DNA of 33,348 nt from Phycisphaerae bacterium. GTDB taxonomy: Bacteria > Planctomycetota > Phycisphaerae > UBA1845. The notes below the pieces were generated by a model. It made no database searches and had not been told where the DNA came from. It was given only the letters and a program-made list of their open reading frames with translations. This document shows positions 11,880-33,348 of this stretch, piece after piece. The position numbers and the translations under genes are program-made. Each line of letters opens with the position of its first letter. Position 1 is the stretch's first letter. The stretch spans positions 1 through 33,348 of the forward strand of contig JAJDDQ010000026.1 in assembly GCA_029260215.1 (NCBI GenBank). The letters are read 5' to 3'.

Positions 11880-14237
11880 CTACCGCCCGCCGCGGTTGAA
11901 CTGTACGGAAACGCTGTTGTCCGCCGAGTTGGTCGTGACCAGGTCCATAGCGCCGTCGCGGTCGAGGTCTCCAGCCGCAATGGAGCTTGGGCTCCCGCCG
12001 ACGCCGTACTCCCGTCGGGAAAAAGAGGCTGAACCGTCGTTGATCATCAGGGTAATGTTACCGACGCCGCTGTTGGCGGTCACGATATCGATCAGGTCAT
12101 CGCCGTTGAAATCGCCCGCAGAGATACCGACCGGTTCCTCACCGACATCGAATGCCGTCTGCCCGTCAAACGTACCCTCGCCGAGGTTCAACAACACGGA
12201 AATCGTACGGCCCGATTCGCCCACCAATCCGAAATTCGCAACAGCCAAGTCCGGCAGCGCATCGCCGTCGAAATCGGCGGTGGTCACCGACGCGGGCGAT
12301 GCACCGACCTCGTACAACTGCACGTTCAGAAAACCGCGCCCGCTGTCGTTCAACAAGACGCCGACATCGTTGCTGAAGAAATTCGCCGTCGCGATGTCCG
12401 GAAGCGAGTCCCCGTCGAAATCGGCCACGGCAACCGAAAACGGTGCCTGGCCCGTGATGTAGGCCACGCGCGGCGCGAACGTACCGTCGCCGAATCCCGC
12501 CAGGATCGAAACAGTCTGCCCCGGCACGAGCAGTGTTCCCGAATCCGCGACGGCCAAGTCCAGCACATCATCGTCGTTGAAATCAGCGACCTCAATCGCC
12601 CAAGGCCCCATGCCCGTCGAATAGATTACGCCCGGCGCATAAGTGCCGTCGCCGGTGTTCAACAGAACGGAGAGATGCCCATTGAAGAAATTCGCGACGG
12701 CGATATCCACATCGTCATCGCCGTCAAAATCGCCGCTCGCCACAGCCGACACGCCGAGGCCGACCGTATAATCGACACCGCCGGGGAAGCCGGCTGCACC
12801 ATCGTTCAACAACACCGACACGCGCTGCACACTGAAATTGGTCACAGCCAAGTCAGGCTCGTCGTCGTCGTTCAACAACCCGATCTCAACCGACCAGGCT
12901 GAACTGCCGGCTGGGGAACTCCGGTCCGTCGCGAACGTCGCGTCGCCGTTATTCAGCAGGACCGAAACGCTGTTGCTGCCGACGTTGGCCGCGATCAACT
13001 CGGGGCGATTGTCGCCGTTGAAATCACCGCCGACAACCGACCGCGGCGTCATGCCCGCACTGTAGCGCTGCTCGGGCAACAGCGTACCATCGCCCGCATT
13101 GACCAGCATAGACAAATCCTGACTCACCACGTTTACCACGGCGATGTCCAACGCGCCGTCGTCGTTGAAATCGCGTACGTCAACCGACCAGGGTCCAACG
13201 CCCGCACCGTAGTCCGTCCGATCGCCGAACACGCCGCCACCGTCGTTGATCAAAATCGTAACGCCGCCCGGCAGGCCCAACTGACTGTCGCCCTGATTCG
13301 CGATCACCAGATCGAGCACACCGTCACCGTCGAAATCAACGGATTTCACCGTACGCGGGACAGCCCCGACCGCGTACGTCTCCGTCACGGTGAAACGACC
13401 CTGGCCGCCGTTGAACATGATCGCGACCGTGTTGTCCTGAAAATTTACAGCGGCTAGATCGTCGTCGCCGTCCCGGTCATAGTCCCCCACCGCCACCGAA
13501 AAAGCGCCATTGCCCGAACGGACATTTTTGGGGAAACGGAATCGGCCTTTGCCGTCGTTCAGGAGAATCGACACGCCGGAAAACTGCCCGACGTGTGCGA
13601 TGGCTAAGTCGACCGAACCGTCGCCGTTAAAGTCGCCGGTGTCGATCGACAGCGGCGTGCCGTTCGCGTGCGTCATCACATCGTCGGCGAACGTGCCGTC
13701 GCCGTTGTTCATGAGAATCGAAACCGAGAACCGAGGCGAGAATACATCGCCCTGATTGACGACGGCCAAATCCATGTCGCCGTCCGCGTCAAAATCTTCG
13801 GCGATGATGTATAAAGGCCTGTTGCCGACCGGGTAGCGATTCTCTTCGCCAAACGTGCCGTCGCCCAATCCGAACATAACCGTGACGTCGCTGTCCCCGA
13901 AGTTGGCCACCAATAGATCGAGCATGCCGTCGTTGTTCACATCAGCCGCCTCGGCATACCGAGGCTGGTCGCCGACCGTGAATTCCGGGTTGCCGAATAC
14001 GAGAGAATCACCCGCTTTCCCGGCAGACGCCGTCGTCGTCTGATCGCGTGACGGTGCAGCCTCGCGTACCGGTGGGACTTCCGGCACGGGCGTTCGATCC
14101 TGCGCCAGCGAAGCGCCAACCGTCACGTCCTTCCGGCCATCACGCGGCGACCGGTTCACAGTCTGTGCGGGCGAGGGGATCGTCGTCGCAAACAGCAAAG
14201 CGGCGAGTTGGATGGTCACGATCGAACTGCGTCTCAT
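11880..14237 (-). CDS. Secreted FG-GAP/VCBS repeat protein, 14 repeats
   Basis: A 785-residue protein. The ATG at 14237 has CAGGAGA eight bases upstream; upstream in-frame starts are poorer. The signal peptide is residues 1-24 ('LLFATTIPSPAQ'), then a Pro/Ser-rich linker to about residue 75. The rest is 14 tandem blades of about 50 residues. Each has a DxNxDG / DFDGDG-type calcium loop ('ADVNNDGMLDL', 'GDFNGDGSVDL', 'ADFDGDALPDL') followed by 'VANFG..' and 'VSVLLNNGDGTF' strands. Fourteen blades would make two seven-bladed beta-propellers of integrin alpha type. Some loops lack the full Asp set (for example 'GLLNDDDEPDL'). It is likely extracellular or surface-bound, with unknown partners. 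No C-terminal sorting domain is seen. Confidence 0.92.
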   Translation of the reverse strand: MRRSSIVTIQLAALLFATTIPSPAQTVNRSPRDGRKDVTVGASLAQDRTPVPEVPPVREAAPSRDQTTTASAGKAGDSLVFGNPEFTVGDQPRYAEAADVNNDGMLDLLVANFGDSDVTVMFGLGDGTFGEENRYPVGNRPLYIIAEDFDADGDMDLAVVNQGDVFSPRFSVSILMNNGDGTFADDVMTHANGTPLSIDTGDFNGDGSVDLAIAHVGQFSGVSILLNDGKGRFRFPKNVRSGNGAFSVAVGDYDRDGDDDLAAVNFQDNTVAIMFNGGQGRFTVTETYAVGAVPRTVKSVDFDGDGVLDLVIANQGDSQLGLPGGVTILINDGGGVFGDRTDYGAGVGPWSVDVRDFNDDGALDIAVVNVVSQDLSMLVNAGDGTLLPEQRYSAGMTPRSVVGGDFNGDNRPELIAANVGSNSVSVLLNNGDATFATDRSSPAGSSAWSVEIGLLNDDDEPDLAVTNFSVQRVSVLLNDGAAGFPGGVDYTVGLGVSAVASGDFDGDDDVDIAVANFFNGHLSVLLNTGDGTYAPGVIYSTGMGPWAIEVADFNDDDVLDLAVADSGTLLVPGQTVSILAGFGDGTFAPRVAYITGQAPFSVAVADFDGDSLPDIATANFFSNDVGVLLNDSGRGFLNVQLYEVGASPASVTTADFDGDALPDLAVANFGLVGESGRTISVLLNLGEGTFDGQTAFDVGEEPVGISAGDFNGDDLIDIVTANSGVGNITLMINDGSASFSRREYGVGGSPSSIAAGDLDRDGAMDLVTTNSADNSVSVQFNRGGR

Positions 14238-14626
14238 AAAACCGTCTCCTGGATTCACCGTCATTGTAGACGCCTTCTCCCCATCATCACCACACAAAAC
14301 ACCTCAATCCCCGCGAATCCGCCGATCCCCGCCAAGTTTCAGTGCAAACCATCCGCCTGCACCGCAATCACGACAACGCGGATGCAACCAGTGCTTTGTT
14401 AAGCCTGAAACGACGGACTGGGTGCTCCATCTCTTCAGAGGTGGGAAAGCAAGTTCCTTGGATTCGACTTCCCCAAGGCTAAAGCCGTGGGGCACCCAGC
14501 GCCCACGACATTTTGATTCACCGATTTGCCCGGCCCGCATACTCCCGATTAGATTGGGGTGTGGTTGAACCCAGTTCCGCAAGCATCGATGATCGCAGCG
14601 AAACCGATAACACAGGCCGAAATTCC
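14238..14626. other. Divergent intergenic region with family C repeat
   Basis: A 389-bp gap between the divergent FG-GAP and LOG-fusion genes. Positions 14391-14501 are the family C repeat described separately. Promoters for both flanking genes must lie here, but none is clear enough to mark. Confidence 0.5.
14391..14501 (+). repeat. Structured intergenic repeat, family C copy 1
   Basis: A 111-bp element with outer ends GGGTGC/GCACCC. Its inner hairpins are a CTCTTCAGAG-centred arm and GGCT-AA-AGCC extended to ACGGC/GCCGT. A second copy in the reverse orientation lies at 18349-18462. The similarity includes about 27 bp beyond the outer stem on one side (gtgctttgttaagcctgaaa), so the repeat unit is larger than the hairpins. 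Confidence 0.75.
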
Positions 14627-15610
14627 ATGACGCAAACCAGCAACGTCACGAAAGACAATCGACCAACCCAGGCCACGCGAACCGTCGCAATCTTCGGCGG
14701 CTACGGCGCATCTGAGGGCGAATCGGCCTACACCTACGCACGCGATATCGGCCGAGGCTTGGCGGAAGCGGGTATCGAATTGCTCAACGGCGGATACGAC
14801 GGAACGATGCGTGCGTCCAGCCAGGGGGCCAAGGACGCGGGCGGTACCACCATTGGCGTCACCTGTCCCGCCGACCTTTCCAGCGCCCGAGGCCCGATGA
14901 AACCCAACAAGTTCATCGACCTCGAATTACCGGCACCGGACATTCTCTCGCGCATCAACGCCATGATGCGCCTGTCGGGTGGCTACGTTTTTCTCGACGG
15001 CGGCACGGGTACACTTTCGGAGCTTGGCGTTATCTGGGAATTTGTGGCTAAGGGCTTCATTCCGCCGCGTCCGATCGTTCTGGCTGGTGCAACATGGGAC
15101 GATTTGCACACACGCCTCGGCGACTATCGCGCGGGCTGCACAAAGCACGTCCACCGCGCGGACACGCCGGAAAAGGTCGTAGCCATCCTCAGCGAACACA
15201 CCGTACGCGGCACGCGGGCGAGGTTCTCAACTCGATACGAAACGGGCACGCACGATCTGACGACCACCGTGGACAGCCTCAAGCAAATTATGCAACGGTT
15301 TGTCGAACAGCGTGACTGGCTTCCGTTTCACGACCCCAAGAATCTGTCAGCCTCCATCGCCATCGAAGCCGCCGAGCTGATGGAACACTTCCAATGGATC
15401 CGTTCGGAAGACCTCGTCAACGTGAGGACGGACCCGAAGAAGATGGAAGAAATCCGCGAAGAGATCGCGGACATATTGGCCTACACGCTGTCATTCGCCT
15501 CGACGATGGACATCGATCTTTCCAGGGCGCTGGCGGACAAAATGGTCAAAAATGCAGAAAAATACCCGATCGAAACATACAAAGGCCGATTTGAACTGCC
15601 CGCGGAGTAA
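14627..15610 (+). CDS. LOG-family / MazG-like (dCTPase-like) fusion enzyme
   Basis: A 327-residue two-domain protein. Residues about 20-205 are a Rossmann LOG/lysine-decarboxylase-like domain: 'TVAIFGGYGASEGE', 'LLNGGYDGTMRASSQGAK' and 'LDGGTGTLSELGVIWEF'. Asp124 replaces the usual Pro of PGGxGT, and Glu132 is the conserved catalytic Glu. Residues about 217-320 are an all-alpha NTP pyrophosphohydrolase resembling dCTPP1/RS21-C6: 'QRDWLPFHDPKNL', metal motif EAAE (247-250), EIAD (279-282) and 'KNAEKYPIETYKGRF'. LOG enzymes cleave nucleoside monophosphates to free base plus ribose 5-phosphate; MazG-type enzymes convert (d)NTP to (d)NMP plus PPi. The fusion could run both steps. Start at 14627 is chosen because earlier codons come from the repeat; its SD is weak. 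Confidence 0.88.
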   Translation: MTQTSNVTKDNRPTQATRTVAIFGGYGASEGESAYTYARDIGRGLAEAGIELLNGGYDGTMRASSQGAKDAGGTTIGVTCPADLSSARGPMKPNKFIDLELPAPDILSRINAMMRLSGGYVFLDGGTGTLSELGVIWEFVAKGFIPPRPIVLAGATWDDLHTRLGDYRAGCTKHVHRADTPEKVVAILSEHTVRGTRARFSTRYETGTHDLTTTVDSLKQIMQRFVEQRDWLPFHDPKNLSASIAIEAAELMEHFQWIRSEDLVNVRTDPKKMEEIREEIADILAYTLSFASTMDIDLSRALADKMVKNAEKYPIETYKGRFELPAE

Positions 15611-15654: not shown

Positions 15655-16977
15655 TTATGTCGCCGCGTCCACACCGATCGTCTGGCCATATCGTTCCTGA
15701 AACTCGTCCGGCGAACGTTTCGCAACCTCCGCTAATCGCCGCAGCGTCATCTGATTATCGAAGTCCGCACGTTCAAGACGAATCATGTACGATCTAGCCA
15801 CACGGTAAATGTCGGAATTGATATCGACGCGCCGAACGCGGATGCGATTCGTCTCGGCATCGATCATCTCGGACAGCTTGATGGGGTGCAGATTGCCGTT
15901 GACCAGCGTGACGAGAACACCCTCACGCGAACCGGTTCCGTTCCTCGTCAACAGGCGCACACACCCATGCCCGAGGCAACGACAGTAGGCCATGTCTCCG
16001 GGGGTCGGGTCGGCTGAACGCAGTTCGTACCCCAGCATGTGCGTCACGATCGACATCTTTTCACCGCGATCGGCGAAGCGAGCCTCAATCTCCCGTCGCA
16101 GCAGCAGCCCCAGCGGTATGTCGGACAGACGCATGTGCCCGGCAGCGTCCACCGGCACTTCGCGACCGAGCAACCGCTCAATCTCCTCCTTGTCCCCAAG
16201 CCGGTTGGCCAGACCCTCCGCGATCAATGCCACACCGTCAGGCCGACCCATGCTCAGACGCTTGAGCATCGACCCTTCGATGACGTCGGCGATTTCATGA
16301 AGCGATGTTTGCTCGTGGAATTCCTCGGGAATCACGGTTACGGTCGCACCGGCGGCCAGACCAATACCCATCGCCAACTGCCCGACACTCCGGCCCATGA
16401 CGGTGACGAGATACCACCGGCCTGTAGTGATGGAGTCCTGCATCAGATTTTTGACGACTTGCGTACCGTGGAATCTCGCTGTCGAAAAACCAAACGTCGG
16501 CGTGCCCTGCGGCAACGGCAGATCGTTGTCGATCGTCTTGGGAACGTGAACCACGCGAATCGCACCGTCAGCCGCTTCGCTGACGAAACGAGCACTGAGC
16601 GCCGTGTCGTCGCCGCCGATGGTGATCAAATGATCCACGCCAAGTCGAACGAGATTGTCTATGACCTGACGAGTCTTGATCTCGTCATTCCGAACGCGCC
16701 CGCCGTGAACGATGGACTCGGCATCGATCAGGTTCGCACGCGAGGTGCGCAGAATCGATCCGCCGTCGAAATGGATGCGCGCCACGTGCTTGATCGTCAG
16801 CGGCATCGCATGCACGGACTCGATGAATCGATCCGTGGTCAGCCACTTAAAGCCATCGAAAATGCCGACAACATCGAACCCGTGATTGATGGCTTCAATG
16901 GTCGCAGCCCCAATGACGCCGTTAATCCCCGGCGCAGGCCCGCCCCCAACAATGATGCCGATTCGTTTCTCAGCCAT
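15655..16977 (-). CDS. pfp: 6-phosphofructokinase, PPi-type
   Basis: A 440-residue PfkA-superfamily protein. It contains 'GGGPAPGINGVIGA' (residues 11-24, where many family members have GGDAPGxN), 'TIGGDDTALSA' (119-129), 'PKTIDND' (146-152) and 'VMGRSVGQLA' (193-202). Asp in GGDD and Lys in PKTIDND are the residues that mark pyrophosphate-dependent enzymes; ATP-dependent ones have GGDG and PGTIDND. The predicted reaction is reversible phosphorylation of fructose 6-phosphate with PPi in cytoplasmic glycolysis/gluconeogenesis. It is a single gene, convergent with the LOG-MazG fusion (44 bp apart). That neighbour's MazG-like domain would make PPi, but any link is speculative. Confidence 0.9.
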   Translation of the reverse strand: MAEKRIGIIVGGGPAPGINGVIGAATIEAINHGFDVVGIFDGFKWLTTDRFIESVHAMPLTIKHVARIHFDGGSILRTSRANLIDAESIVHGGRVRNDEIKTRQVIDNLVRLGVDHLITIGGDDTALSARFVSEAADGAIRVVHVPKTIDNDLPLPQGTPTFGFSTARFHGTQVVKNLMQDSITTGRWYLVTVMGRSVGQLAMGIGLAAGATVTVIPEEFHEQTSLHEIADVIEGSMLKRLSMGRPDGVALIAEGLANRLGDKEEIERLLGREVPVDAAGHMRLSDIPLGLLLRREIEARFADRGEKMSIVTHMLGYELRSADPTPGDMAYCRCLGHGCVRLLTRNGTGSREGVLVTLVNGNLHPIKLSEMIDAETNRIRVRRVDINSDIYRVARSYMIRLERADFDNQMTLRRLAEVAKRSPDEFQERYGQTIGVDAAT

Positions 16978-18348: not shown

Positions 18349-18462
18349 GGGCTGGGTGCCTCACGGCTTTAGCCGTGGGGAGGTCGAATCCAAGGACCAC
18401 TCTACTTCCCCACCTCTGAAGAGGTGGGGCACCCGTCCGTCATTTCAGGCTCAACAGAGCAC
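18349..18462 (-). repeat. Structured intergenic repeat, family C copy 2 (inverted)
   Basis: The reverse-oriented copy of the 14391-14501 element. Outer stem GGGTGCC/GGCACCC closes two perfect hairpins: CACGGC-TTTA-GCCGTG, and CCCACCTC-TGAA-GAGGTGGG. One end reaches the stop codon of the cupredoxin gene at 18462. Confidence 0.75.
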
Positions 18463-28015: not shown

Positions 28016-28341
28016 CCGTTCAAGAACAGTAACTCGTCAATCTGTTTCTGCCTTCTGTCCCTTAACGACAAGCTTCTACACCGGCACCTGCGACTACGCT
28101 GGCACCCGCGACAGACGGCAGTCTTCGTCCCCCCTTGCAAAGGGGGGATACAGGGGGGTCCAGACCAGAGCAACGCCTCGCACCGCAAAAAGAACCTCCC
28201 CCAGCCCCTCCTTATCATGGAGGGGAGGAATATGGCAAGCATTACATCCGCGCCAAGAAACCCTGCCTCGGTATTGACTTCCGCCGTCCAGTGTTGCGCA
28301 TGGCTGAAATTCTTCAAAAAACACACTGCGTCAGTCACGAT
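28016..28341. other. 326-bp gap inside the nuo operon
   Basis: No gene. It holds the family G repeat (28128-28229). Just beside it is an imperfect direct repeat of GGCACC(T/C)GCGAC around 28084-28111. Every other nuo junction here is at most 41 bp or overlapping, so this gap is out of keeping. Confidence 0.55.
28128..28229. repeat. Structured repeat, family G copy 1 (in nuoG-nuoH gap)
   Basis: It opens with palindrome CCCCCC-TTGCAAA-GGGGGG, then ATACAGGGGGGTC. It ends with a second hairpin CCCCTCC-TTATCAT-GGAGGGG. The first 70 bp align with the copy at 33245-33316. The peptide PPCIPPLQGG from the opposite frame is one I recall from spurious ORFs in many bacterial genomes, consistent with a widespread intergenic repeat. 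Confidence 0.7.
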
Positions 28342-33102: not shown

Positions 33103-33348
33103 ATGATGAACGGTTGTAAATGATGGTGGCACTTGCGCCCAGTCCAACCGTGGAAACCGAGTGAAATAGGGGACTGGTAACTCTTCAGCCATGTGCAATG
33201 CGAAGCCACGTTCTGCCCTCGCCTTGCGACAGAATACGATCTTTTCCCCCCTTGCAAAGGGGGGATACAGGGGGGTCTGGATCGGAGTGACGCTTCGGTT
33301 CGCAAGAAGAACCTGATTCTGGACGCTCCCGACTTGGTTGCGTCCAGC
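33103..33348. other. Gene-free end of window with family G repeat
   Basis: No gene is supported; the minus-strand open frame at 33030-33305 is built on the repeat. The family G element occupies 33245-33316. Nothing else is recognisable. Confidence 0.5.
33245..33316. repeat. Structured repeat, family G copy 2
   Basis: The same start as the element in the nuoG-nuoH gap: CCCCCC-TTGCAAA-GGGGGG then ATACAGGGGGGTC, with further matches (CGCTTCG/CGCCTCG, CGCAA-AAGAACCT) over about 70 bp. It lacks the second hairpin seen at 28201-28229. Confidence 0.7.

Follow-up and report, generated by a model that had tools for sequence, protein, structure and literature searches.

A predicted protein joining a LOG-like domain to a MazG-like domain in a narrow lineage of uncultured Planctomycetota

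What might a bacterium do with a single polypeptide whose N-terminal half resembles LOG-type nucleosidases and whose C-terminal half resembles MazG-type NTP pyrophosphohydrolases? The question is raised by contig JAJDDQ010000026.1 of a Phycisphaerae bacterium (assembly GCA_029260215.1; Planctomycetota; Phycisphaerae; UBA1845), of which we analyzed positions 1 to 33,348 of the forward strand; by 'the window' we mean this whole 33,348-nucleotide stretch. Positions 14627–15610 on the plus strand translate into a single intact, stop-free ORF of 327 amino acids, which a first-pass annotation had described as a LOG-like domain fused to a dCTPase-like MazG domain. The gene has the following features:

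14627..15610, plus strand: fusion gene (LOG-like nucleosidase plus MazG-like NTP pyrophosphohydrolase, 327 aa), from the ORF, Pfam, relatives and a structure model
14675..15199, plus strand: LOG/SLOG-like domain, residues ~17–191 (PF18306/PF03641; 1weh at Z 26.3 over 170 residues)
14951..14953, plus strand: Arg109, counterpart of the proposed catalytic Arg99 of CgLOG (R in 35 of 35 aligned LOG halves)
14996..15022, plus strand: DGGTGTLSE motif, residues 124–132, including Glu132, counterpart of the proposed catalytic Glu122 (E in 35 of 35)
15200..15250, plus strand: inter-domain linker, residues ~192–208 (pLDDT <50 for 197–206)
15251..15580, plus strand: MazG-like domain of the RS21-C6/dCTPase type, residues ~209–318 (PF12643; 6sqw at Z 13.9; 4qgp at E 1.2e-20)
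15365..15376, plus strand: EAAE, residues 247–250, with Glu247 and Glu250 matching Glu63 and Glu66 of DCTPP1 (46 of 46 MazG halves; HMMER alignment)
15461..15472, plus strand: EIAD, residues 279–282, with Glu279 and Asp282 matching Glu95 and Asp98 of DCTPP1 (46 of 46 MazG halves; HMMER alignment)

The fused architecture itself was borne out. In the N-terminal half the top Pfam model was PF18306 (LDcluster4, SLOG cluster4; residues 18–135, 64.4 bits against a cut-off of 26.3), accompanied by PF03641 (Lysine_decarbox/LOG; residues 61–185, 42.7 bits, cut-off 27), and the C-terminal half matched PF12643 (MazG-like; residues 243–318, 60.8 bits, cut-off 27) and, weakly but over its cut-off, PF03819 (MazG; residues 238–313, 23.2 bits, cut-off 22). 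No NCBIfam model above its own cut-off spanned the LOG-MazG protein. The fusion was the only PF12643 match in the window's genome, which encodes two other PF03641 proteins. A contig scan, seeded by an exact short pattern and covering the best 80 of 556 relatives, recovered five relatives with both halves (L004–L008, at 51–65% identity to the window's protein), and from the sixth relative on the matches were partial and confined, entirely or for the most part, to the MazG half. Since five other MAGs thus encode both halves in a single open frame, with such identities, the fusion in the window is neither a chance joining nor an assembly chimera. A frameshift or stop between the domains, which the first-pass annotation had said would count against its reading, was found in none of the six fusions, one of which (L006) has lost its first ~28 residues at a contig end.

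Among the sequences that we searched, the fusion occurred in 6 of the 51 genomes of the window's family, spread over five genera, and nowhere else. At the level of the class, six of 397 genomes had both halves in one match, all of them from this family and all ranking as the top six among the matches listed. PF12643 was matched in 94 of 392 genomes of the phylum; in the 20 stretches that we examined there (17 non-window PF12643 matches with frames of at least 246 aa, the shorter match in G451 and two places from the class search), we found the MazG half in 15 and the LOG half in none, although the LOG profile was made from this subfamily and could therefore have missed a distant LOG. Searching the 51 family genomes with each half separately (E <= 1e-12), we found the MazG half in 46, with exactly one copy in each (40 unfused and 6 fused), and the LOG half in 10, comprising the 6 fusions, 3 unfused copies (G398, 56%; G319, 50%; G373, 43%) and 1 weak match (G160, 31%). 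The fused copy was the only MazG-half match at this threshold in all six fusion genomes, and because the MazG half is present in exactly one copy per genome, the fused copy stands in for the stand-alone enzyme. We saw no operon link between LOG and MazG among unfused relatives: in all 14 genomes showing both halves unfused among the matches listed, the two lay on different contigs. Three unfused family genomes (L016, L017 and L035) have a different, type-II-like LOG 2.3–4.0 kb from MazG, which is unconvincing as a link. Separately, L034 carries a Planctomycetota-type MazG.

The surroundings of the unfused gene bear on how the fusion came about. In the unfused loci that we compared, MazG is convergent to a gene for a ~220-aa protein, which is followed by a PIG-L deacetylase gene, with both neighbours matched in 12 of 13 such loci. 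In four fusion genomes (G000, G263, G196 and G272) this pair persists away from the fusion, on sequence that extends over the side where MazG would be expected, but a profile search run unfiltered (E 0.1) detected no trace of MazG or LOG beside it. A usual neighbourhood that lacks MazG in four of the six genomes implies that there the fusion sits elsewhere and that the stand-alone gene has disappeared from where it normally lies. The pair is itself part of a conserved cluster (seen in L232, L234, L235, L236 and L237), in which the ~220-aa protein has no Pfam match and which in some genomes includes glycosyltransferases. In G346 we found no PIG-L match. Two genes upstream of the G166 fusion (L008), one of them encoding an aminotransferase, recur at the unfused MazG locus L010, so that this fusion may sit at or near the usual MazG place, with PIG-L on another contig, near a contig end. 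G166 speaks against a simple account in which the gene moved in all genomes, and L008 may mark the place where the fusion arose.

In trees, the LOG halves of the fusions formed one group (support 93/97; 94% of bootstrap trees). Their MazG halves did not, requiring four label changes, with AU p values of 0.025 for all six and of 0.063 without G166, a subset picked after the tree had been seen. The fusion may have arisen once, to be spread, lost or converted afterwards, or may have been captured repeatedly. The dN/dS ratio was 0.09–0.41 for the LOG half (five pairs) and 0.09–0.16 for the MazG half in three of five pairs, synonymous change being saturated in the other two and dS being high throughout; where computable, these values suggest that both halves are kept by purifying selection.

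We then compared the active sites with those of characterised relatives. For the LOG of C. glutamicum (CgLOG), Arg99 and Glu122 are the proposed catalytic residues (PMC4979012), and their counterparts R109 and E132 were kept in all 35 aligned LOG halves, six of which are fused. With these residues and the Pfam scores over cut-off, the N-terminal half falls within the LOG family by sequence, and the first-pass annotation had placed Glu132 correctly within DGGTGTLSE. The first position of the motif departs from the PGGxGTxxE of classical LOGs: all six fusions read DGGTGTLxE, with the remainder of the motif intact, and of the 35 LOG halves 6 have D here, 9 have E, 18 have P and 2 have another residue. 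Three of the residues described as lining the prenyl pocket of CgLOG, Lys100, Glu125 and Trp129, correspond, by an ungapped offset, to I/V110, V/I135 and F/H139 in all six fusions, and the protein scored below the cut-offs of the NCBIfam cytokinin LOG equivalog NF058542 (26.9 versus 300 bits) and of TIGR00730 (51.9 versus 96.35 bits).

In the MazG half, W231, H235, N239, E247, E250, W257, E279, D282, K305 and N309 were kept in all 46 MazG halves, and the ExxE ... ExxD metal site among them, together with the PF12643 score, identifies this half as an all-alpha NTP pyrophosphohydrolase of the MazG-like kind; the motifs EAAE and EIAD were where the earlier annotation had put them. The pocket of DCTPP1 is described as His38, Trp47, Glu63, Glu66, Trp73, Glu95, Asp98 and Tyr102 (PMC4491611), for which the HMMER alignment gave M222, W231, E247, E250, W257, E279, D282 and Y286 as counterparts. 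Seven of these eight residues were kept in all six fusions, and the Tyr102 position was Y in 36 and F in 10 of the 46 MazG halves. The exception was His38, which hydrogen-bonds cytosine and is replaced by M, V or I in the fusions and by M, V, I or F in all 46. The dCTPase-like label thus holds for the fold and for most of the pocket but is weakened as a strict dCTPase assignment. None of the six fusions has lost a catalytic residue from either half, so that a loss in homologues of the kind that would have told against the earlier reading was not seen. Judged by their residues, both halves look catalytically competent, and neither carries the specificity residues of its best-known relatives (for cytosine in DCTPP1 and for prenyl-adenine in LOG).

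An AlphaFold2 model of the fusion, built from an alignment of 66 sequences that placed the ends of certain LOG-only sequences in MazG columns, had a mean pLDDT of 88.7 and a pTM of 0.65. Because linker residues 197–206 had pLDDT <50 and the pTM was modest, the relative placement of the domains, and with it any channel, is not readable from the model. For the LOG half, 170 residues aligned with 1weh (TT1887; Z 26.3), and TT1887 was also the nearest solved structure by sequence (2.6e-21). The C-terminal half has the dCTPase fold, with 109 residues aligned to the mouse enzyme 6sqw (Z 13.9, rmsd 1.7), and its nearest solved structures by sequence were the Archaeoglobus pyrophosphatase 4qgp (AF1178; 1.2e-20) and 6sqw (3.9e-17). 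The structural match to 6sqw came from a second structural comparison; no MazG-type chain was among the best 50 Foldseek matches.

How might the two halves work together? MazG is described as converting NTP to NMP and PPi (PMC10014863) and PpnN as converting NMP to base and ribose 5-phosphate (PMC6717881), and the plant LOGs characterised so far are reported to use monophosphates and not di- or triphosphates (PMC8234997), which makes a monophosphate-producing domain a logical fusion partner. On the strength of the conserved residues, we propose that the fusion could be a bifunctional enzyme that removes a nucleotide in two steps, our leading reading, which we consider about as likely as not. 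The MazG-like domain would hydrolyze a (d)NTP, most likely of pyrimidine type or modified, to (d)NMP and PPi, and the LOG-like domain would then hydrolyze the N-glycosidic bond of the (d)NMP to release free base and (deoxy)ribose 5-phosphate; because the base would be removed from the monophosphate, the nucleotide could not simply be rephosphorylated. We infer both activities, their order and the shared substrate, as well as a transfer by proximity inside an oligomer of the kind expected from the relatives. A more specific version, in which one polypeptide takes a particular, perhaps modified, dNTP to free base and sugar phosphate, with a LOG domain acting on deoxynucleotides, and in which the fusion has taken the place of the single separate MazG of the lineage, is possible but doubtful.

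A direct hand-off faces a problem with the sugar. DCTPP1 is reported to bind the four canonical NTPs only very weakly (PMC4491611) and its deoxyribose-packing Tyr is kept in the fusions (Y286), whereas the catalytic Arg of CgLOG is described as gripping the ribose hydroxyls (PMC4979012), so that one half must differ from its relative. Either the MazG half accepts ribonucleotides or the LOG of the fusion accepts deoxynucleotides; the MazG of M. tuberculosis is said to hydrolyze all canonical NTPs, which softens the clash (PMC10014863). Also against the two-step reading, most family genomes that bear MazG have no close LOG (10 of 51 with the LOG half, one of them weak), the unfused halves lie on different contigs (14 of 14, among the matches listed) and the MazG tree does not group the fusions.

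The same mismatch between ribose and deoxyribose in the characterised relatives, the flexible linker and modest pTM, the separate contigs of the unfused halves and the scarcity of common neighbours at the fusion loci would also fit two active, tethered enzymes with separate substrates, the MazG domain acting on a deoxy-pyrimidine triphosphate and the LOG domain on a ribonucleotide monophosphate, with the fusion providing only co-expression or a shared oligomer. We regard this arrangement as rather unlikely: the pairing persists at 51–65% identity across five genera, as the only MazG half found there, and the reactions of the two joined enzymes would be chemically consecutive.

Alternatively, the LOG domain might not be an enzyme itself but might regulate the MazG domain, as a nucleotide or ligand sensor or as an oligomerisation module. 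The top rank of the LDcluster4 model would suit such a role, as would the structural matches to Moco-binding/carrier proteins, which fit the model no worse than PpnN (Z 20.6–22.1 versus 20.4–21.7), and to the SLOG domains of ThsA, which bind signal nucleotides (Z 13.2–13.7). However, the catalytic Arg and Glu are strictly conserved, unfused relatives included, and LOGs with solved structures match at Z 21–26, TT1887 best of all, which together make a purely regulatory domain improbable.

A cytokinin-activating LOG served by a MazG helper that supplies isopentenyl-AMP from the triphosphate would be in keeping with the LOG fold, its catalytic residues and the existence of IPT-LOG chimeras (PMC8234997), but with the prenyl-pocket residues replaced in every fusion and a score far below the cytokinin LOG equivalog cut-off we consider it very improbable.

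Returning to the proposed nucleotide-removing enzyme, we looked at its genomic context. The ten neighbour proteins that we scanned, mostly of housekeeping kinds, were PFK, a MauG-type peroxidase, PdxA, a lumazine-binding protein, SurE, YjeF_N, a methyltransferase, a polysaccharide deacetylase, a multihaem cytochrome and a DUF4097 protein; by eye, the ORF list continues with complex I-like subunits. Comparing fusion loci, with flanks that were short in places (L006 starts inside the fusion, L007 ~0.3 kb upstream and L004 ~1 kb), we found that the congeneric pair L004/L005 alone had neighbours in common, apart from a weak, repeat-like similarity (28–36%) between L004 and L007. None of the window's genes other than the fusion had a match in the flanks examined at the five other fusion loci. 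The first-pass annotation had speculated that a neighbouring PPi-dependent kinase might use the PPi produced; this hand-over is unsupported, the PFK gene (15655–16977, minus strand) being convergent with the fusion gene and unmatched in the flanks examined at other fusions.

The window also holds several repeats. The fusion gene, PFK and the MauG-type gene lie between positions 14405–14498 and 18351–18448, which are two copies, inverted relative to each other, of a dispersed element of ~94 bp that is partly palindromic; this element has at least 48 matches at at least 40 distinct places in its own genome (40 of 93 candidates scored). A second dispersed repeat of 70 nt with a palindromic C/G-run core lies at 28128–28197 and 33245–33314 (84% identical). 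A large protein encoded at 11880–14297 on the minus strand contains eight repeat copies, many at 147-nt spacing, with VNNDGMLDLLVANFG-like units that by eye resemble FG-GAP.

The earlier suggestion of a phage-type or antiphage role did not hold up either. None of the 19 matching phage records and none of the 54 matching plasmid records covers at least 80% of the fusion, the one matching locus in viral contigs has MazG only, and no defence family was found among the ten scanned neighbours. An antiphage or nucleotide-depletion defence protein, to which the occurrence of SLOG domains in conflict systems (PMC9503650) and the only PADLOC match (PsyrA, weak at 19.4 bits) might point, is highly implausible given this record, the mostly housekeeping neighbours and a MazG half that is a near-universal single-copy gene of the family. 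The housekeeping neighbours and the lack of a mobile record with the fusion favour a metabolic role over both the PPi-kinase and the defence ideas.

In the literature that we searched, judged by titles and the start of abstracts among the matches listed, we found no report of a LOG-MazG fusion. Both halves are known enzyme types, and what is provisionally new is their pairing, restricted to a narrow lineage of uncultured Planctomycetota. LOG-type proteins are widespread, and beyond the biochemistry of cytokinins and PpnN many of them lack, to our knowledge, a known substrate. A natural fusion of LOG with a pyrophosphohydrolase points to a likely upstream partner for such proteins, can be assayed directly by the conversion of one NTP to free base, and could reveal a nucleotide that this bacterial lineage needs removed.

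HisE and MazG-like proteins form separate branches of one superfamily. The consecutive-step logic put forward in the first-pass annotation has precedents in HisIE and in the IPT-LOG chimeras. With the LOG, PpnN (YgdH) and TT1887-type proteins the fusion has in common the fold, the GGxGTxxE motif and the catalytic Arg and Glu; it differs in the D for P in the motif, in lacking the prenyl pocket and the flanking domains of PpnN, and in its added MazG domain. DCTPP1/RS21-C6 and 4qgp (AF1178) have the same fold as the fusion and seven of the eight pocket residues but are stand-alone proteins. In the IPT-LOG chimeras of Rhodococcus fascians A21d2 and Claviceps purpurea, LOG is likewise joined to another enzyme from the pathway in which it acts (PMC8234997), but there the partner is an isopentenyltransferase and the products are cytokinins, whereas the fusion has not kept the prenyl pocket. 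In HisIE (phosphoribosyl-AMP cyclohydrolase plus phosphoribosyl-ATP pyrophosphohydrolase), as in the fusion, an N-terminal hydrolase for the following step precedes a C-terminal HisE-like pyrophosphohydrolase, and the intermediate is reported to be handed over preferentially by proximity channelling with no tunnel (PMC10242683); HisI is not a LOG, however, and the HisIE pathway is biosynthetic, not degradative. If the more specific version of our reading, with a LOG domain acting on deoxynucleotides, is correct, the fusion would be a bacterial, single-chain form of pyrophosphatase-then-nucleotide-hydrolase sanitation.
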